The notes under the pieces were generated by a model. That model did not search any database. It was not told the origin of the DNA and worked only from the letters and a program-made list of their open reading frames with translations. Position numbers and translations under genes: made by a program. A DNA stretch of 16,347 bases. It comes from an uncultured Lachnospiraceae bacterium. GTDB taxonomy: Bacteria > Bacillota_A > Clostridia > Lachnospirales > Lachnospiraceae. Location of the stretch: contig CAJLNC010000059.1 in assembly GCA_905207905.1 (NCBI GenBank), positions 1 through 16,347 of the forward strand. Direction: 5' to 3'. Position 1 is the stretch's first letter. Each line of letters opens with the position of its first letter. Of this stretch, positions 1-16,347 are shown piece after piece.

Positions 1-1362
1 GCTCAGCAGCAGATGCAGAAAGCTCAGACTGACGCAAAAGCGGCAGTTGCCCAGGCACTGCAGTTTTCAGAAATTTTGCCTGGGCAGATTGCTGGCGTTG
101 GTTTTTCTGGACAAATGCATGGGATGGTCGCTTTGGATGATCAGATGCAGCCTGTGGATGAGGCGATTATCCATTTGGATGCCCGGTCATTGAAAGAAAA
201 AGAAACCATTTTTGAGCTTGCTGGAGACTTGATGAAGACAGAACTTCTAAATCAGCCAAGTACTGGGATGCTGATCTGTTCTTTGCTGTGGACGAAAAAT
301 CAGAAACCAGAATGTTATGAGAAAATCCGATATGTGATGTCGCCCAAAGACTACATCCGGTATCTTCTCACAGGCTGCGTAGGAACCGACTACAGTGATG
401 CAGGGGCAACGCTTGCATTTTCCGTAAAGCATCGCAGATGGTGTATGGAATTGATACAAAGACTGGGATTGAAGGAAGACATCTGGCCGCAAGTATACGA
501 ATCCAGTGAAATAGCAGGAAAAATCACAGCGTCGGCAGCGGCTGAGACAGGTTTGCCGGAGGGAATTCCTGTGGTGGCTGGCGCTGGGGACTGTGCGGCT
601 GCAATGATTGGAAATGCAGTGATTGAGAAAGGCATCATGACCTGCAATATCGGAACGGCATCTCAGATTGCAGTGATTACCGATAAGCCGGTGTTTGATG
701 AAGGAATGCGGTGCCAGCTGTGGTGTCATGCGCTTCCGGGAGCCTGGATCTACCAGGGAGGCGCACTGAATGGAGGAAACACTTTAAGCTGGCTGAAAAA
801 TAAGGTGCTTCGGGATAAGCGGCCCTTTGCTCAATTGGATCAGGAGGTGGCAAAGATTCCGGCTGGCAGTGAAGGATTACTGTTTTTGCCCTATCTGGCA
901 GGAGAGAGGACGCCCTTTAACGATCCAATGGCCAGAGGCGTTTATTTTGGAATGACGATGCGCCATGATCAGGCCTATGTGGTGAGAGCGACCATGGAAG
1001 GAGTACTTTACAATCTTAGAGAGTGTAAAACGATTTTTGATCAGATGAAAATTCCTCAGAAGAAGCTGATTTCTTCCGGAGGAGGAGCAAAAGGAAAAGC
1101 CTGGAAACAGATACAGGCGGATATGCTGGACATGCCGGTCTATACCACCAATACAGAGGAAGAGGCTTGTCTTGGCGCTGCGATACTGGCGGCAGTGGGA
1201 ACCGGACAGTATCAGGATGTATACGAAGCCTGCAGAGAAATGGTGACTGTAAATGATACGGTGACAGAACCCATTAGAGAAAATGCAGAGTATTACAGAG
1301 AGCGCCAGGGATTGTTCGATGATCTGTATGACCATGTTAAGGAATTATATAGAAGACTGTGA
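1..1362 (+). CDS. xylB: Xylulokinase, 5'-truncated by the window edge
   Basis: This is a FGGY-family sugar kinase that phosphorylates D-xylulose to D-xylulose 5-phosphate in the cytoplasm, linking xylose catabolism to the pentose phosphate pathway. The frame is open from base 1 and the first ATG is at 13. Roughly the first 45-50 residues, including the N-terminal phosphate-binding loop, lie outside the window. Visible motifs, counted from the ATG at 13, are FSGQMHG (about 31-37, typical of xylulokinases), LDARS (55-59), AGAGDCAAA with the likely catalytic-base Asp at 193 (codon 589-591), the NIGTASQ segment, YLAGERTPF and the C-terminal SSGGGAKGKAW nucleotide-binding loop. The stop TGA is at 1360-1362. 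The next annotated operon is convergent. I see no xylose isomerase or regulator in the window. Family identity is confident. Substrate specificity is from family resemblance, and a related FGGY pentulose kinase is the only real alternative. Confidence 0.93.
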   Translation, partial: AQQQMQKAQTDAKAAVAQALQFSEILPGQIAGVGFSGQMHGMVALDDQMQPVDEAIIHLDARSLKEKETIFELAGDLMKTELLNQPSTGMLICSLLWTKNQKPECYEKIRYVMSPKDYIRYLLTGCVGTDYSDAGATLAFSVKHRRWCMELIQRLGLKEDIWPQVYESSEIAGKITASAAAETGLPEGIPVVAGAGDCAAAMIGNAVIEKGIMTCNIGTASQIAVITDKPVFDEGMRCQLWCHALPGAWIYQGGALNGGNTLSWLKNKVLRDKRPFAQLDQEVAKIPAGSEGLLFLPYLAGERTPFNDPMARGVYFGMTMRHDQAYVVRATMEGVLYNLRECKTIFDQMKIPQKKLISSGGGAKGKAWKQIQADMLDMPVYTTNTEEEACLGAAILAAVGTGQYQDVYEACREMVTVNDTVTEPIRENAEYYRERQGLFDDLYDHVKELYRRL

Positions 1363-1454
1363 TCCCAGACATTTCAGAAATCGATTCCAAAGAAGAGTAT
1401 CATAAAAAAGCCGTAAGAGAAAAACAGAAGGATTGGGCTGGCCCGAAGGGGTAG
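1359..1454 (+). CDS. Possible 31-residue ORF overlapping the xylulokinase stop
   Basis: A GTG at 1359-1361 overlaps the xylulokinase TGA in the GTGA arrangement usual for translational coupling. It opens a short, very hydrophilic frame ending at TAG 1452-1454. The peptide contains SKEEYHKKAVREKQKDWAGP and looks more like a real protein tail than random translation. There is only a weak purine stretch (AGAAGA) in front of the GTG. I recognise no family. It may be the remnant of a downstream gene that has been deleted, or chance. Confidence 0.2.
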   Translation: MIPDISEIDSKEEYHKKAVREKQKDWAGPKG

Positions 1455-1492
1455 GAAGCAGAGTCAGTTCATTCCGAAAGTTTTGTCTTGCG

Positions 1493-1536
1493 GCATTTTT
1501 GCTTCATAGAAAATTTTTCCTGTGAAACAAAAATGC
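1493..1536. terminator. Hairpin between convergent xylulokinase and SDR genes
   Basis: Arms at 1493-1509 and 1520-1536 are complementary at 15 of 17 positions around a 10-base AT-only-plus-C loop; the arms carry GCATTTTTG and CAAAAATGC at their outer ends. It lies between two genes that transcribe towards each other, so a shared bidirectional terminator is the natural reading. There is no separate T-tract beyond either arm, so this is inferred from position and symmetry. The rest of 1455-1618 shows nothing else I can support. Confidence 0.4.
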
Positions 1537-1618
1537 TCTGCAGGATCACACTGTGGCGGACAGAAACGATGCCCCTGGTATGAACACTACCCAAAGCGCT
1601 GGAAGACGGCAGCCAGGT

Positions 1619-2692
1619 TTAAGTATTCCTCAGACATTCTATGGTTCTGGCAGCGCCTTTCTCCAGGGAAAAGCAGGGGCGCCAGCCCAGGCTTTCCAGA
1701 CGGCGGGAATCCAGAGCAGAATTGTCCATCAGGTTATAGCCCCTTTTCTCAAGTGCTGTGGCTTCCTGACAAATTACTTTCGTTCCGGCAGCTTTGGCCA
1801 GAGCGTCGGCCAGATCCCGGATGGTGACAATGGAATCCGGATTGGAAATATTGTAGGCAGTACTTCGCTCACCGTTTAACAGTACCGCAAGGATGGCAGA
1901 AGCGCAGTCCAGGGTATAGCAGTAGGAGCGAAGCTGTGTGCCAGCGCTTTTCATGATAATATCCTGCCCAAGTACAGCATTTCGGGTGAACTGTGCGGAG
2001 GCTCTGGAATCGGAAACCGTGATGGAGGGTCCGTAGATATGACCGGGCCGCACAATTACCGTGTCCGTGTTGTATTCCGCATTGTACGAGATGCAGAGTG
2101 TCTCCGCAGCGCGCTTGGCACAGGGATAACAGGCTCTTGGATTTAACAGATCTACATAGCCGTATTCGTCCTCACGATAAGGCGCTTTATTGGCGTTGCC
2201 GCCCATGCGCGTGCCGTAAACCTCGCTGGAGGACACATAGAGAAGACGTCTGGTGGAACTGCGGCGCATGAGATCTAGCAGGGCATTTAATCCTACCAGA
2301 TTGGCTAACATAGTCTCAGCGGGCTGTTTTGTGTAGGAGGCCGGAGAGGCATTGCTGGCGGCATGGATGATATAGTCTGTATTCAAGTTGATGATTGCGG
2401 AATCCGTGGCTTCATAAAAAACAAATTCATAGTCCTGATCCAACCGGAAGAGTGAGAAGCGACGCTGTATTTTTTCTCTGCTGCGTCCGGCCAGAAGAAG
2501 ATGAATATTGGCCTGTTTCTGCGTATTTAGATAAAAAATCAGATCTGCTATGGCAGATCCAATCATCCCGGTGGCGCCTGTAATTAACAGAGAGCAGCCG
2601 AAAAGCTGTTCCAGATTGGGAATCTGTGCGGCCGCTTTGGCTGTATCTGCCCAGTAATGTTCGGTATAATTCATAGTCATTATTTTAACCAC
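1619..2692 (-). CDS. NAD(P)-dependent epimerase/dehydratase, extended SDR family
   Basis: This is an extended short-chain dehydrogenase/reductase with a Rossmann fold, probably acting on a nucleotide-activated sugar or alditol. Numbered from the GTG at 2692 it shows the dinucleotide-binding GATGMIG (39-45), the catalytic-serine strand SSSEVYG (154-160), the catalytic YPCAK (YxxxK, 189-193) and RPGHIYGP. Overall it resembles UDP-glucuronate decarboxylase / nucleotide-sugar epimerases. Three starts compete. GTG 2692 has AAGGA only 3 nt upstream. ATG 2680 sits in a TAATG overlap with the preceding stop. ATG 2674 is two codons further. Coupling to the upstream gene makes 2680 or 2674 likely. It is the last gene of the licD - cytidylyltransferase - SDR operon, so its substrate is probably the sugar or alditol that the cytidylyltransferase activates. 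The exact reaction cannot be read from sequence. Confidence 0.85.
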   Translation of the reverse strand: MVKIMTMNYTEHYWADTAKAAAQIPNLEQLFGCSLLITGATGMIGSAIADLIFYLNTQKQANIHLLLAGRSREKIQRRFSLFRLDQDYEFVFYEATDSAIINLNTDYIIHAASNASPASYTKQPAETMLANLVGLNALLDLMRRSSTRRLLYVSSSEVYGTRMGGNANKAPYREDEYGYVDLLNPRACYPCAKRAAETLCISYNAEYNTDTVIVRPGHIYGPSITVSDSRASAQFTRNAVLGQDIIMKSAGTQLRSYCYTLDCASAILAVLLNGERSTAYNISNPDSIVTIRDLADALAKAAGTKVICQEATALEKRGYNLMDNSALDSRRLESLGWRPCFSLEKGAARTIECLRNT

Positions 2693-3390
2693 GTATCCTT
2701 TTTCGTGTGAAGCAGCGCTTTAAAGATCATCATGTCATCAAGGGTGGTAATTTTCAGATTTTCCTCGGAACCTTTGGAAAAATAAATGGTTTCCCCCAGC
2801 TTCTGCATCAGTACACAGGTGGCGGCAGTTCCGGTGATCCCCCGCTTCTGGGCTTCCCGATGTGCCCATAAAAGTTTGCCCAGAGAGTAGGCGTGAGGCG
2901 TCTGAGTGCGCAGCAGTTCCTCCCTTGGAATGGATACGGTGGAGGAAATTCCATCGCGGCTTTGCATGACAGCCTCCACACAGGGAATAGCGGCCACTGC
3001 GCTGCCGTATTTTTGATAGGTGGCCAGACAGTTGGAAATAATTTCGCTGGAGACCAGGCAGCGGTTGCCATCGTGAATCATTACAATATCCTCCGGGGAT
3101 AGCTCTTTTTCCAGAGTTTCCAATCCCAGGCGAATCGATTCTTGTCCGGTGTCTCCGCCGGGCACTACCCAGCGAAGCTTGGTAATATTAAACTGGCTGG
3201 CGTAGGCCTTTAGGACATCAATCCAAGAGGGAAGGGTGACCACCAGGATGGCGTCGATGCTGGGATGACGCTGAAATGCCTCCATGGTATGGATGATCAA
3301 AGGTTTGTTGTCAATATGGATAAACTGCTTTGGAATGTCCTGTCCCATGCGGGAACCGGAGCCTGCCGCTGTCAGCAGTGCTGTAATCAT
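2680..3390 (-). CDS. IspD/TarI-family cytidylyltransferase (likely CDP-alditol synthesis)
   Basis: This is a 236-residue nucleotidyltransferase of the family that makes CDP-methylerythritol (IspD) or CDP-ribitol (TarI, bacterial and animal ISPD) from CTP and an alditol phosphate. It shows the CTP-binding loop AAGSGSRMG (8-16) followed by PKQF (20-23), HDGNR (106-110) where IspD proteins usually have HDAAR, RTQTPHAY (161-168), and the C-terminal NLKITTLDD (211-219). I chose ATG 3388-3390. It overlaps the licD TGA as ATGA and has GGAGG 8 nt upstream; a longer TTG start at 3405 has no such site. Sitting between licD and an SDR gene, it is more likely to supply CDP-ribitol or a similar donor for LicD than to serve isoprenoid synthesis, but housekeeping IspD cannot be excluded from one window. 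Confidence 0.85.
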   Translation of the reverse strand: MITALLTAAGSGSRMGQDIPKQFIHIDNKPLIIHTMEAFQRHPSIDAILVVTLPSWIDVLKAYASQFNITKLRWVVPGGDTGQESIRLGLETLEKELSPEDIVMIHDGNRCLVSSEIISNCLATYQKYGSAVAAIPCVEAVMQSRDGISSTVSIPREELLRTQTPHAYSLGKLLWAHREAQKRGITGTAATCVLMQKLGETIYFSKGSEENLKITTLDDMMIFKALLHTKKDTWLK

Positions 3391-4286
3391 GATTCGTTCC
3401 TCCAATACATATGAAAGGTGTGGTCCGACTGCCGTTTTTCTTTGGGCGGCAGCTTCCCATAATCACCGTAAAGCTGAGTCAGGTAGGTATGATAATTTTG
3501 TGGTGCATGATAAGTTTTCCCTTCAAAGGAAACCTCCACAGTGGGAAGATATTCTTCCTTTACCACTTTTTCCTCTGTGGTATGCACCGGAGCAGTCATC
3601 ACGCCCACATAAGCCTCCTGGTCAAAGGAATATTTTTTTGCCAGTTTTTGGATCTGCTGACTCCAGAAACGGTAGCCTGCTAGTCTGGCTGGAAGAAACA
3701 TCACGATATGAAACAGATGAGCAGCCAGGCTGCTGGCTTCCATGTGCCGGAGTGCAGCCACACGCTGCATTCGCCGCAGATTTACCATTTTTCTGTAGTG
3801 CTTTTTTGTTTCTTTATCACTTTCGGGAAGTCCCTCAATGGGAAAAATATCCAGGAAAAAGGGCTGGTATACGATGTTTTTTTCTTTTGTCCCGCTGTTG
3901 CAGTTTTCAATTACTCCGCCAAAATCATAGAGACGATAAAAGCCGCAGTAACGTGCAAATTTGTTCATATCAGGCCCCATAAGAACATAAGGTCCTATTT
4001 TCCCACCGGTGAGGGAGAGAAGTTTTTCACAGTCCGGCCTTGGCATATTGATATCAATATCATCGTCCCAGGGAATAAAGCCCTTGTGCCGGATCGCCCC
4101 AAGAAGGGTGCCTCCGGAGAGGTAATAGCGAAGCCCCAGTCCGTCGCAGCAGTCTGCCAGGGCATCCAGCATGGCCAGCTGTTTTTGTCTGGCTTCCTGT
4201 GTGGTCATGGCTTTTCCGCAGTCCTCTTTTGTAAAGAGGGGGTATTGGGAATTTGTTTTGGTTTTTACAGTTTTTTTTCTATTCAT
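3387..4286 (-). CDS. licD: LicD-family phosphotransferase
   Basis: This is a 299-residue LicD-type nucleotidyltransferase-fold protein. Members transfer phosphocholine, phosphoribitol or similar groups from CDP-donors to teichoic acids, capsules or glycans; the fukutin/FKRP ribitol-phosphate transferases of animals belong to the same superfamily. The diagnostic block is intact: SGGTLLGAIRHKGFIPWDDDID, with GG at 58-59 and the metal-binding WDDDID at 73-78, numbered from ATG 4286. Further on are FFLDIFPIEG and the C-terminal YGDYGKLPP block. I prefer ATG 4284-4286 because AGGGA lies 8 nt upstream; a longer frame from ATG 4310 has no ribosome site. It is the first gene of the operon and its TGA overlaps the next ATG. 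The accepted group (ribitol, glycerol, choline or other) is not visible. The directly linked cytidylyltransferase favours an alditol phosphate. Confidence 0.9.
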   Translation of the reverse strand: MNRKKTVKTKTNSQYPLFTKEDCGKAMTTQEARQKQLAMLDALADCCDGLGLRYYLSGGTLLGAIRHKGFIPWDDDIDINMPRPDCEKLLSLTGGKIGPYVLMGPDMNKFARYCGFYRLYDFGGVIENCNSGTKEKNIVYQPFFLDIFPIEGLPESDKETKKHYRKMVNLRRMQRVAALRHMEASSLAAHLFHIVMFLPARLAGYRFWSQQIQKLAKKYSFDQEAYVGVMTAPVHTTEEKVVKEEYLPTVEVSFEGKTYHAPQNYHTYLTQLYGDYGKLPPKEKRQSDHTFHMYWRNES

Positions 4287-4597
4287 AGCATTTCCCTGCA
4301 GTTTTTGCATCTGTATGATTATGCTGAAAAAGCAGCGTCAGTATACAAAATTTCTCTGTAAAATATAATAATATGACCATTATTTTAACACGATAAATGG
4401 CTGCTGTAAAGGTGGCAATCTGTGGCTGCATGTACTGAAAATTTTACGATGCATTCTACCATTTATCAATGGAATAATATAACAGTAATATTTTAACATA
4501 ATGATTGACAATTCAGACAAGGAATGCTACCATCTTTAAAGAAATAATGAATACTTATTTAAAAAGTAGTGGTCGTATTTTAGGGAGGAATTTTTAC
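4287..4597. promoter_or_regulatory. Divergent AT-rich regulatory region between licD and blaI
   Basis: About 310 bases separate the two divergent operons. For the plus-strand operon there is a consensus -35 TTGACA at 4505-4510 with a poor -10 (TACCAT, 4528-4533) 17 bp away. A short dyad CCATT-tatc-AATGG lies at 4460-4473, and similar CTACCAT blocks recur near 4455-4462 and 4527-4533, which could be repressor contacts. A TACA/TGTA pair with a 9 bp gap lies at 4344-4360, but the spacing does not match known BlaI boxes. I see no convincing promoter for licD. The operator assignment is inference. Confidence 0.4.
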
Positions 4598-13952: not shown

Positions 13953-14034
13953 ATCATAAATTGATCTCTCAGCACCGTGTAACCGAATCACAAATCACTC
14001 TCTCGGCACCGCGCAGCCGGATCACAAATCGATC
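13953..14034. repeat. 34 bp tandem repeat arising from the exoA 3' end
   Basis: Two full units, 13967-14000 and 14001-14034, have an exact 34 bp period and 27 of 34 identical bases. A third partial unit at 13953-13966 matches the end of the unit in 12 of 14. The unit nearest exoA includes its last codons and stop (ATCGATTTGTGA on the minus strand), so the repeats look like successive duplications of the gene's end. Five of the seven differences are transitions. A palindrome ATGATC-a-GATCAT on the minus strand closes the array on the far side. No T-tract follows. Role unknown. Confidence 0.8.
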
Positions 14035-14832: not shown

Positions 14833-14941
14833 TTTTTCATCGGATTTTCCTACCCTAACTTTTGGAAACTTTCCAGGGTCTAACCATTATGCTTAACCAA
14901 CAGAAAATAAAACATACCTTATGGGTATATGGGTAATATGT

Positions 14942-15148
14942 ATGGAAAAAGAAAACAGGAAAATGCCATTGCCACAAGAAGATGTCATGAAAATTTTGGT
15001 CTCTTGTTATGAAAAATATTTGCATGAAATTCCTAAAGTACGTTCAAACGCAGAGGACATGGCTGAGGAATATTACGGAAATAGAAACCTTCATAAAAGA
15101 AATGTAATAATGTCATTTGCAACTGTCATTTTGATTTCAGCCATCTGA
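14942..15148 (+). pseudogene. Truncated EcsC-like N-terminal fragment
   Basis: This frame is also open from ATG 14921. The segment MPLPQEDVMKILVSCYEKYL followed by HEIPKVRSNAEDMAEEYY matches, from memory, the start of Lachnospiraceae EcsC-family proteins (LPxxxxVMxxLxxxYxKALxGxP...AEELAExY), which normally continue for more than 200 residues with a Gly-rich hydrophobic core. Here the similarity ends at about residue 50 and the frame stops after an unrelated hydrophobic tail (FATVILISAI), 20 bp before a bidirectional terminator. No good ribosome site is seen at any of the three Met codons. I read it as the 5' remnant of a gene whose rest was deleted, beside the toxin-antitoxin insertion. A genuine small protein is the alternative. 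Confidence 0.5.
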
Positions 15149-15167
15149 ATTTTCCTCTCTTTTAAAA

Positions 15168-15228
15168 GAAAAAAGTTAGACACATCATGGGCATTTTGCT
15201 CAAAATAATGTGTCTAACTCTATTTTTT
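15168..15228. terminator. Bidirectional intrinsic terminator
   Basis: A perfect 12 bp stem, AGTTAGACACAT (15174-15185) with ATGTGTCTAACT (15208-15219), has TTTTTT on its plus side (15223-15228) and AAAAAA on its minus side (15169-15174), giving a T-run in both directions. It lies directly behind the left gene-tail copy and the toxin stop on the minus strand, so it probably was the terminator of the gene whose tail remains at 15250-15291 and now ends the toxin transcript. Confidence 0.85.
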
Positions 15229-15249
15229 AGAAATTCAGTTGTCTAAACC

Positions 15250-15291
15250 TTAGAACTTACCTGCCTTCGCTGCTTCCTCGATAGAAACAGG
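15250..15291 (-). pseudogene. Left copy of a gene 3' end (PVSIEEAAKAGKF-stop)
   Basis: Read on the minus strand in one frame, this encodes P-VSIEEAAKAGKF followed by TAA. The gene entering from the right edge ends with VSIEEAAKEGRF and TAG (16219-16260). The two align without gaps over 14 codons, with about three quarters of bases and 10 of 12 residues of the tail identical. The codon-wise pattern shows it was once coding. It overlaps the last codons of the toxin gene in a different frame. It marks one border of the toxin-antitoxin insertion. Confidence 0.75.
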
Positions 15292-15859
15292 AAACCTTGA
15301 TTTTCAGCCATTCCCTCATTGCGTTCTCACAACATGAAAAATCACAGTATGTACGCCTTACATTTTGTGTTTCTTTTTGATGCTTATAAATTTTTTCTGC
15401 TTTTGTCAGTATTTTATCCTTAATGGTTAAGCAAAAAGCATATTCCTTTTCAAATAAGTCCTGATAACGTTCATCGCTCAACTCATCAAATACAACTCTT
15501 TTGTAAGCGTCATCCGGAACGGGTATCATTTTTTTGATATCCAAGACAGACAGCACATGCATTTTTTTATCTTTGGAATATTCTTTATATACATCACCCG
15601 AAATATTTACAGACTTATCTATCACTTCATATATTAAAAAATGTTCGTCACAACTATTTTTCCACTTTTTATGTTTTTCCTTTGCCGATGTTAAAGGAAT
15701 AAAATATTTACATTCTATCATGTCTATGATAATACCAACAAAAGGTTTTATCGCATTCCTATAAGAAGCATTATAATATACTTCTGAATTCTTGTTGTTT
15801 AGATATTCCAAATAATCAGCATCAATGGTATAGAAACCAAAATTTTCAAATTCGGCCAT
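15257..15859 (-). CDS. toxN: Type III toxin-antitoxin endoribonuclease, ToxN/AbiQ family
   Basis: This 200-residue protein matches the ToxN/AbiQ toxin family, sequence-selective endoribonucleases inhibited by a repeat RNA and able to abort phage infection. It opens GFYTIDADYLEYL (8-20), the usual FYTI.xxYIxYL start, followed by AIKPFVGIIIDM (36-47) with a Lys at 38 matching an active-site Lys of ToxN. PLTSAKEKH (55-63) then supplies Thr57, Ser58 and Lys60, equivalent to the catalytic TS.K. IKKMIPVPDDAYK (108-120) is the conserved 'MIP' segment, and YCDFSCCE (171-178) resembles the ToxN C-terminal block. AAGGAGA stands 3-4 nt from the ATG. Upstream are the repeat RNA and its terminator, the standard gene order. 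Family members are about 150-190 residues; the last 11 residues (SCFYRGSSEGR) are read out of a foreign gene tail. Assignment to the ToxIN or CptIN subfamily is open. Confidence 0.9.
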   Translation of the reverse strand: MAEFENFGFYTIDADYLEYLNNKNSEVYYNASYRNAIKPFVGIIIDMIECKYFIPLTSAKEKHKKWKNSCDEHFLIYEVIDKSVNISGDVYKEYSKDKKMHVLSVLDIKKMIPVPDDAYKRVVFDELSDERYQDLFEKEYAFCLTIKDKILTKAEKIYKHQKETQNVRRTYCDFSCCENAMREWLKIKVSCFYRGSSEGR

Positions 15860-15873
15860 AGTTCTCCTTAGTC

Positions 15874-15902
15874 AAAAAGTGGAGAAGATTTCTCTCCTCC
15901 AC
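15874..15902 (-). terminator. Attenuating terminator between antitoxin RNA and toxin
   Basis: On the minus strand GUGGAGGAG, a six-base loop and CUUCUCCAC form a 9 bp stem with one G-U pair (15879-15902), then UUUUU (15874-15878). It lies 15 bp before the toxin start. In type III systems such a partial terminator sets the excess of antitoxin RNA over toxin mRNA. Confidence 0.9.
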
Positions 15903-16010
15903 TAAGCTTTAATGTTCCACCTTTTGGATATAGGTAGCGGGACACCTTCTTTAATGCTCCACCTTTGTAATGGGTAGTGGGACACCCTCTTTAACATTAT
16001 CCCTTTTTCT
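15879..16010 (-). ncRNA. toxI: Type III antitoxin RNA (ToxI-like repeats)
   Basis: Tandem units lie at 15949-15988 (40 nt, promoter-proximal) and 15907-15948 (42 nt, toxin-proximal), with a 9-base partial unit at 15989-15997. Both carry the blocks GGUGUCCC, CUACC, AAAGGUGGA and CAUUAAAG on the minus strand. The toxin-proximal core AGGUGUCCCGCUACCU and the distal GGGUGUCCCACUACCC differ so that a four-base stem changes from AGGU/ACCU to GGGU/ACCC, a compensatory change. The loop GUCC can pair with the downstream GGAAC or GGAGC, giving an H-type pseudoknot as known for ToxI. The AGGUG....GCUACCU core also recalls the Pectobacterium ToxI repeat (from memory). The RNA should be cut by the toxin into repeat units that bind and inhibit it. 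The ends are inferred from the promoter and terminator. Confidence 0.87.
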
Positions 16011-16016
16011 AATTTT

Positions 16017-16045
16017 AATATACATTAGTATATGCGCAAAGTCAA
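16017..16045 (-). promoter_or_regulatory. Promoter of the type III toxin-antitoxin operon
   Basis: On the minus strand TTGACT (16040-16045) and TATATT (16017-16022) are separated by exactly 17 bp. A second TTGACA lies 13 bp further upstream (16053-16058), and a TATACT (16027-16032) lies within the spacer. Transcription should begin near 16010, just before the first repeat. Confidence 0.75.
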
Positions 16046-16137
16046 TAACTTTTGTCAAAACACCACAGTTATGTAAACCAATTATTCGCACAGCAAAATG
16101 TAGGAATATCATATAGGATTAATGTATAAATAGTGTA

Positions 16138-16172
16138 GGAGTGACCCCTTATTTGCCATAAAAAGTCACTCC
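16138..16172. repeat. Inverted repeat between the toxin-antitoxin promoter and the right-hand gene
   Basis: GGAGTGAC (16138-16145) and GTCACTCC (16165-16172) form a perfect 8 bp stem with a 19-base loop. It has no following T-tract. It may be a terminator remnant or mark the right border of the insertion. Confidence 0.45.
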
Positions 16173-16191
16173 CAAATACTCTTAATTACTT

Positions 16192-16213
16192 CTAAAAACC
16201 GCTCAATACGGTT
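16192..16213 (-). terminator. Short intrinsic terminator for the right-hand gene
   Basis: On the minus strand AACCG-tattgag-CGGTT is followed by TTTAG, only 5 bp after the gene's stop. The stem is short (5 bp), so it is a plausible but weak terminator. Confidence 0.45.
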
Positions 16214-16218
16214 GTTTA

Positions 16219-16347
16219 CTAGAATCTGCCTTCCTTCGCTGCTTCCTCAATCGAAACTGCAACTGCTACAGTCATACCAACCATGGGGTTGTTACCTGCT
16301 CCGATCAGACCCATCATCTCAACATGAGCCGGTACGGAAGAAGAACC
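16219..16347 (-). CDS. C-terminus of an unidentified protein, cut by the window edge
   Basis: Forty-two codons and a TAG stop (16219-16221) are visible, the frame running in from the right edge. The tail contains SSSVPAHVEMMGLIGAGNNP, then MVGMTVAVAVSIEEAAKEGRF. It is Gly/Met/Val-rich and ends in a charged helix. I do not recognise the family. Codon use is that of a well-kept chromosomal gene. Its last 14 codons have a diverged second copy at 15250-15291, so this gene is the site at which the toxin-antitoxin segment was inserted, or the surviving member of a tandem pair. Confidence 0.75.
   Translation of the reverse strand, partial: GSSSVPAHVEMMGLIGAGNNPMVGMTVAVAVSIEEAAKEGRF

Follow-up and report, generated by a model that had tools for sequence, protein, structure and literature searches.

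A ToxIN-family module as the sole recognised gene content of a putative att-bounded, integrase-less unit at the 3′ end of a GGGtGRT gene

Type III toxin-antitoxin systems are known on plasmids and chromosomes. In the 16,347-nucleotide stretch of DNA analysed here (the window), a complete-looking ToxIN-family module occupies an att-bounded unit of ~0.97 kb that lacks an integrase, holds no other gene content that we could recognise and was probably inserted by site-specific recombination at the 3′ end of a GGGtGRT gene; recombinase action, the order of events and the function are what we infer from the arrangement described below. The original prediction had recognised the toxIN locus and called it a chromosomal copy. 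That reading of toxIN is right and ordinary in itself, and the description as a chromosomal copy is incomplete, as the module forms the content of an att-bounded unit; this setting at GGGtGRT, with independent counterparts at rpsI, is new.

In the proposed course of events, the tail of the GGGtGRT gene would serve as the attachment site for a family of tyrosine integrases. An older, integrase-bearing element would first have inserted there and decayed to its att copy, a hairpin and the first codons of its integrase gene, and the toxIN unit would later have entered between this older element and the gene, bringing its own copy of the gene tail; since the unit carries this copy, the end of GGGtGRT stays intact. 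In this toxin family, ToxN processes the toxI transcript into pseudoknot units, which in turn inhibit the toxin; once the supply of toxI stops, free ToxN cuts cellular RNA. Phage infection or loss of the unit would stop toxI in this way, defending against phages and punishing loss of the unit, and the module would thus be an RNA-antidoted endoribonuclease for phage defence and its own retention.

The toxIN module

The original prediction placed a complete type III locus at 15257..16045 with all its parts on one strand, and these were found on the minus strand in canonical order. The toxN gene (15257..15859, minus strand) encodes a predicted ToxN/AbiQ endoribonuclease of 200 aa, recognised by its open reading frame, profile and fold. 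The suggested search against the Pfam family ToxN_toxin (PF13958) confirmed the assignment with 144.3 bits (E 4.8e-42, cut-off 25) over residues 8-184, and the PADLOC AbiQ profile also matched (3e-29); NCBIfam profiles returned nothing at E <= 0.1. In the PDB, a sequence search retrieved ToxN (4ATO, 2XD0, 7D8O) and AbiQ (4GLK) and no others at E < 0.1, and a profile-based search likewise returned ToxN and AbiQ. The AlphaFold2 model of the protein (pLDDT 83) gave four PDB matches at E <= 0.001 (TMt 0.71-0.80), which were exclusively ToxN Bt, ToxN Pa, E. coli ToxN and AbiQ. A CptN chain was absent from the single-sequence and profile searches of the PDB at E <= 1 and from the fold matches listed (the best 50 of 295). 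Because CptN was found neither by sequence nor among the listed folds, the system is assigned to ToxIN and not to CptIN: of the anticipated "ToxIN/CptIN-like" character and the proposed structural likeness to ToxN, AbiQ and CptN, the ToxN and AbiQ parts hold, with profile, PDB sequence, predicted fold and RNA covariation agreeing on ToxIN, and the CptN part was not borne out by these searches.

The active-site residues of ToxN Pa (Tyr29, Lys33, Thr52, Ser53 and Lys55, as listed in the part of PMC5086642 available to us) correspond to Y33, K38, T57, S58 and K60 in a HMMER alignment to 2XD0, in agreement with the Lys38, Thr57-Ser58 and Lys60 originally named. Of these, K38, S58 and K60 are invariant across 29 aligned sequences (the window and 28 of 120 listed relatives). 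The closest aligned relatives agree with the window toxin to about residue 186, after which their endings diverge; residues 191-200, the last 10 codons, come from att copy 2 and are not common to the 28 relatives aligned, and residues 194-200 form the sole stretch of at least three residues with pLDDT < 50 in the model. The differing ends past about residue 186, together with the low pLDDT at 194-200, point to a toxin tail that is an out-of-frame reading of the copied GGGtGRT tail, and these altered last codons may affect ToxN activity.

Relatives 92-97% identical to the window toxin exist, one of which, at 95%, is named Eisenbergiella sp. MAG; together with a best DNA match of xthA at 80%, in a genome set chosen by way of a locus labelled Lachnospiraceae, this makes the predicted Lachnospiraceae host plausible. 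Such close relatives are absent from the 53 genome loci found, where the best segment reaches at most 69%. A search of viral contigs gave no ToxN, and the ToxN proteins in phage records (3) and plasmid records (141) are, every one, less than 60% identical to the window toxin. Among the toxN loci collected, toxN is split into two ORFs in L026-L034, and two tandem toxN ORFs with starts 883 bp apart occur at L166:4941-6252.

Upstream of toxN, a sigma-70-like promoter of toxI (TTGACT-17-TATATT; 16017..16045, minus strand) matches the consensus at 10 of 12 positions and lies in the right place. Promoter-like matches are common in the region (10 sites versus 5.6, sd 2.5, in shuffles), so the predicted promoter of its own rests mainly on position and is plausible rather than proven. 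It is followed by a partial repeat end, ATGTTAAAGA, and by two full toxI repeat units, each a predicted pseudoknot, at 15950..15988 (unit 1) and 15908..15948 (unit 2), both on the minus strand and identified by tandem repetition (15907-15994; period 40, 2.1 copies, score 127), unit pattern and covariation. An intrinsic terminator with 11 pairs, located by a terminator scan at 15878-15903 (15874..15903 for the whole part; minus strand), separates toxI from toxN, in a region (15000-16347) with 4 terminator-like sites versus 0.5 (sd 0.8) in shuffles, and a Shine-Dalgarno-like AAGGAG stands with the start codon in 15857..15870 (minus strand, ATG at 15859). The tandem repeat RNA, terminator and ribosome site expected from the original prediction are thus all in place. 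A search of the window at Rfam gathering thresholds returned nothing.

Units built on the same plan as the window toxI precede toxN in many relatives, and 37 distinct units were gathered from these by pattern, units of other plans not being counted. This pattern constrained stem 1 for the most part and, in stem 2, a portion of the 3′ strand, whose 5′ partners it left free. All four positions of stem 2 are paired in 37/37 units; one of its pairs occurs as A-U, G-U, U-A, G-C and C-G (shuffle mean 21.1, maximum 29/37) and another as C-G and U-A (shuffle maximum 33/37), with the remaining two invariant. In stem 1 (GGU:ACC), three positions are paired in 37/37 units, mostly fixed by the pattern, and the inner pair alone varies (U-A 32, C-G 3, U-G 2; 1 in 1000 shuffles as good); the outer stem 1 pair is weak (25/37, with 42 of 1000 shuffles as good). 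Covariation in these 37 units supports an H-type pseudoknot with crossing stems for the repeat RNA, the form also described for the solved ToxI in the retrieved part of PMC5086642.

The GGGtGRT gene tail and its second copy

The 3′ end of a GGGtGRT gene (PF14057, Pfam E 1e-15) occupies 16219..16347 on the minus strand and is cut by the end of the window. Its last 41 nt (16219-16259, minus strand), which spell VSIEEAAKEGRF, constitute att copy 1. A second GGGtGRT 3′ end, att copy 2 (15250..15290, minus strand), spells VSIEEAAKAGKF followed by a stop codon in a frame that differs from that of toxN, so that both copies still give a good GGGtGRT end. The direct-repeat search paired 15251-15293 with 16220-16262 (43 nt, 81%, 8 of 43 positions differing) at a distance of 969 bp, which is the length of the unit from repeat to repeat. 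The repeat is modest, with a 38-nt core; a gene-tail score as high as the 23 of the window came up once among 6,642 mismatched pairs of loci, for which 82 of the 99 loci were usable. Inside the unit, a short hairpin with a T-run (16194..16213, minus strand), which is absent from the sites of the terminator scan, may be the GGGtGRT terminator, judging from the sequence, and a hairpin of 17 pairs from the terminator-like scan (16136..16174, minus strand) lies in the left end. Between the att copies, toxN is the only ORF of at least 60 aa on its own strand, the other one listed being antisense to toxN, and integrase and transfer genes were not found in the ORF listing or by Pfam, applied to toxN only. 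As read from the DNA, toxIN is thus the only gene content recognised in this unit, which has att copies at both ends and no integrase.

Directly after att copy 2 lies a hairpin with a T-run, GTTAGACACAT...ATGTGTCTAAC (15169..15218, minus strand), which comparison with other loci places elsewhere between GGGtGRT and a tyrosine integrase gene. It is followed by a remnant of about 15 codons of the start of such a gene, MAEIKMTVANDIITF... (15091..15144, minus strand), recognised by peptide alignment: the peptide scores 53 against integrase N-termini such as MAKIKMTIANDLTF, and in 200 shuffles the top-scoring protein out of 120 never exceeded 29. The motif GTTAGACACAT occurs in 2 of 192 loci and the inverted pair in L084 only, where it stands downstream of GGGtGRT, with a broken N-terminal integrase domain after it (Phage_int_SAM_3, E 0.0013, which falls short of the cut-off); this integrase piece has matches in 5 of 378 genomes of the family, its own (G137) included. 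In L198 and L199, GGGtGRT and the hairpin are followed by a full-length integrase (314 and 310 aa; Phage_integrase, 110 bits each). The window sequence from att copy 2 through the integrase start scores 67.5 against L198, 86.0 against L199 and 60.0 against L202, with maxima of 33.5, 31.0 and 23.5, respectively, in 100 shuffles each. The order of GGGtGRT, hairpin and intact integrase elsewhere, combined with the stump in the window, argues that the GGGtGRT 3′ end is an attachment site.

Further observations concern the integrase family and the surroundings. The first gene of the viral contig L203 is 71% identical to the L198 integrase, indicating that the family also occurs in phage-like elements. 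At 14921-15148 on the plus strand of the window, a 75-codon ORF without a family match has its end antisense into the integrase remnant, possibly at the cut point of the decayed element, and a 34-nt tandem repeat of 1.9 copies lies at 13965-14030, between GlgX-like and exonuclease III genes.

The GGGtGRT gene is present in 307 of the 378 genomes of the family searched. To survey its 3′ end, 60 downstream regions were taken from the matches listed, mostly in list order; genes near the downstream contig end and one locus already in the set were skipped, and several pieces still run off the contig. The survey covered 57 loci with at least 3 kb downstream, and the window, L198, L199 and L202 were not chosen blind. 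Of the 57, the window and L257 have a second gene tail (score at least 20, against a maximum of 16.5 for 1,500 null pairs); in L257, a 3.2 kb segment (L257:227-3500) with HicB, a resolvase and a sigma factor lies between two GGGtGRT tails (45/47 nt) and GTAACACACA-like arms recur near both ends. Besides L198, L199 and L202, an integrase match behind GGGtGRT was obtained in L285 (another type) and L283 (weak). The L285 enzyme, a different tyrosine integrase (356-aa ORF), stands directly behind GGGtGRT on the other strand, in surroundings that are prophage-like by eye. A search of 105 loci, of which 57 extend for at least 3 kb, found ToxN within 6 kb behind GGGtGRT in the window only, which argues against a generally inherited neighbourhood, and in L249 (G071) GGGtGRT and xthA stand in the window order with one other gene between them and the element absent.

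On the reverse strand of L200, at about 1000-4530, HTH, AAA ATPase and TIR genes lead into an orphan GGGtGRT tail, after which come the hairpin and an integrase stump, a layout that resembles the window with other cargo. Upstream of this tail the contig runs for ~4 kb before it ends, and G233, the genome of L200, is missing from those with a GGGtGRT match; the left boundary of this module therefore lies outside the view, and the TIR/ATPase module apparently sits at a GGGtGRT 3′ end. The L200 stump runs into a short ORF that is antitoxin-like by eye. The GGGtGRT 3′ end is thereby added to the integration sites, holding, besides toxIN, integrases (L198, L199, L285), the HicB segment (L257) and apparently the TIR/ATPase module (L200).

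toxIN units at rpsI and the origin of the window unit

Seven of 99 non-redundant toxN loci have toxIN behind rpsI (L043-L047, L050 and L052). In L043, L044, L046 and L050, a toxIN-only unit of 1032-1098 bp extends from the rpsI stop codon to a second copy of the last rpsI codons, TCCAAGAGATAA, which is eroded in L043; the left ends are similar, the right arm is like GTAAGTGACAAGTAACTAACAAA, and in L050 the left end is preceded by an additional stretch that contains more core-like copies. Apart from toxN, the only ORFs of at least 60 aa inside these four bounded units are antisense ones, none longer than 108 aa, and the right core is absent in L045 and L047. The toxN DNA of L043 and L044 is 95.5% identical versus 79.0% for rpsI, that of L043 and L046 96.0% versus 74.0%, and that of L044 and L046 96.5% versus 77.1%, and the next 1500 bp downstream of these three share only short local matches (at most 51 columns), nothing clear. 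As the collection holds one genome per species, these values suggest that a toxIN-only unit moved between species into one site. Among the 15 pairs formed by six of the loci (all but L047), the likeness of toxN exceeds that of rpsI in 11, the exceptions being L044-L050, L045-L052, L046-L050 and L050-L052, with the second of two modules measured for L052. In that locus, rpsI is followed by two tandem type III modules, which are separated by a copy of the rpsI tail (L052:8240-10760).

In a general test, with redundant loci removed, repeats spanning toxN were found in 8 of 99 toxN loci versus 3 of 141 control ORFs, two of which represent the same repeat; an earlier form of the test, with redundant loci kept in, had given 5 of 54 loci versus 13 of 769 positions. 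The tail of the upstream gene forms the spanning repeat in only three of the 8 loci, namely L050, L179 and the window, and for this reason the general figure is not used as proof. L179, with a 56-nt repeat (84%) of the tail of a 422-aa ORF, offers a weaker third target gene. The repeats of L003, L010, L052, L144 and L151 are not the upstream gene's tail; L151 and L144 were rejected as examples because, by eye, they hold repeated coding stretches, and L003 and L010 because their repeats are intergenic. A AAAATCAA motif, common by eye near right junctions, was dropped as a possible coincidence. In 18 loci between L002 and L040, from Peptoniphilus, Anaerococcus and others, toxIN stands behind a topoisomerase-like gene family (mostly 568 aa).

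A sharper form of the preferred explanation, to which we give not far short of an even chance, is that toxIN and its att site form the mobile unit itself, excised and integrated in trans by integrases that belong to other elements with the same target. The four bounded rpsI units with their similar ends, and the greater likeness of toxN than of rpsI in L043, L044 and L046 amid unlike flanks, favour such mobilisation, and the integrase-less unit of the window adjoins the target gene, the expected place of the last arrival. Against it stand the four of 15 pairs in which toxN is not the more alike and two exact right-end patterns of the rpsI units, which have no match in viral contigs; the unit could also travel in cis with a helper that was later lost.

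It is also quite possible that the unit is a decay remnant, a classical CIME: a larger phage, ICE or IME would have brought toxIN and lost the rest in place, with toxIN kept as its loss kills. The neighbouring integrase is itself decayed, IMESag-rpsI carries a toxin-antitoxin system (in the part of PMC5704250 retrieved), and CIMEs of 1.2-13 kb lie behind rpsI, rpmG and fda in S. salivarius (in the retrieved part of PMC7563491). Several genomes with differing flanks, however, carry units with similar ends and no other content, which independent decay does not readily explain, and no remnant of another gene was recognised in the window unit by ORFs or Pfam. A unit that adjoins the gene is expected to have entered most recently, and the position of the window unit therefore speaks, without proof, for entry in minimal form rather than for decay after insertion.

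Local duplication or homology-facilitated illegitimate recombination, in which a donor with a GGGtGRT tail and toxIN recombined within the gene and was joined by chance downstream, appears unlikely. The junction does lie inside the last codons of toxN, where relatives end differently, but the second tail continues into the hairpin and the integrase start as at intact integrase insertions, and similar units with similar ends occur at rpsI. Moreover, each GGGtGRT tail remains a coding sequence, and some of the differences between the two are silent, which means that neither was recently copied from the other. An assembly error joining two contigs at the repeat, conceivable insofar as the window may be a metagenome contig, is highly improbable, given that the copies differ at 8 of 43 positions and that the order of tail, hairpin and integrase start agrees with L198, L199 and L200.

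Insertion of a toxIN unit by site-specific recombination thus remains the preferred reading. In its most general form, which we advance tentatively, toxIN with a gene-tail att site would be a self-contained mobile unit, ~1 kb long and without an integrase of its own, which any tyrosine integrase with the same target (the end of GGGtGRT or rpsI) could move in trans, and the toxin-antitoxin system would be its whole cargo and its retention device. A dissemination route would then be readable from the DNA, as this shows where the unit begins and ends, its attachment site, a family of integrases and no fewer than two target genes; the movement of solitary chromosomal modules becomes testable by PCR of excision and empty sites, and the boundaries help to find such units in other genomes. 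The available part of the review PMC5086642 says of a chromosomal type III system only that it might spread by horizontal transfer, and a literature search, within the portions of text it returned, gave no description of toxIN as the sole content of an att-bounded unit or of GGGtGRT as an attachment site.

Comparison with known systems

The window module shares with ToxIN (E. coli ToxN 7D8O, AbiQ 4GLK) the toxin fold and the active-site residues, as well as the order of promoter, repeats, terminator and toxin and a pseudoknot repeat RNA. It differs in its repeat, with two full units of 39-41 nt compared with 34-36 nt for ToxI (PMC5086642, in the part retrieved), in the toxin tail read from the att site and in being att-bounded as a whole. 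With CptIN of Eubacterium rectale it shares a chromosomal location, a gut Firmicute host and a longer repeat unit, although this is shorter than the 45 nt of CptI (given in the retrieved part of PMC4627078), and the toxin has neither a sequence match nor a listed fold match to CptN.

CIMEs, as described in the retrieved parts of PMC5704250 and PMC7563491, keep their att sites, have no integrase and form accretions with other elements downstream of rpsI, rpmG and fda. Correspondingly, the window unit has two att copies at a gene 3′ end and lacks integrase and transfer genes, and the integrase stump and hairpin directly after att copy 2 speak for tandem arrangement or derivation; like streptococcal CIMEs, it stands in tandem with another element. 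In S. salivarius, according to the available part of PMC7563491, decayed CIMEs are always farthest from the gene and the smallest CIME with cargo measures 1.2 kb, whereas the window unit is smaller, carries toxIN only, targets GGGtGRT and adjoins its target gene, and similar toxIN units recur at rpsI in several genomes. IMESag-rpsI and other IMEs and ICEs at gene 3′ ends offer a further parallel, with insertion into the 3′ end of rpsI by a tyrosine recombinase and known toxin-antitoxin cargo; IMEs, however, encode an integrase and usually a relaxase, whereas the four bounded rpsI toxIN units have no ORF of at least 60 aa beyond toxN and its antisense ORFs. The CIME is a known kind of element, and a toxIN-only version that, judging from sequence comparison, moves between species would be new.
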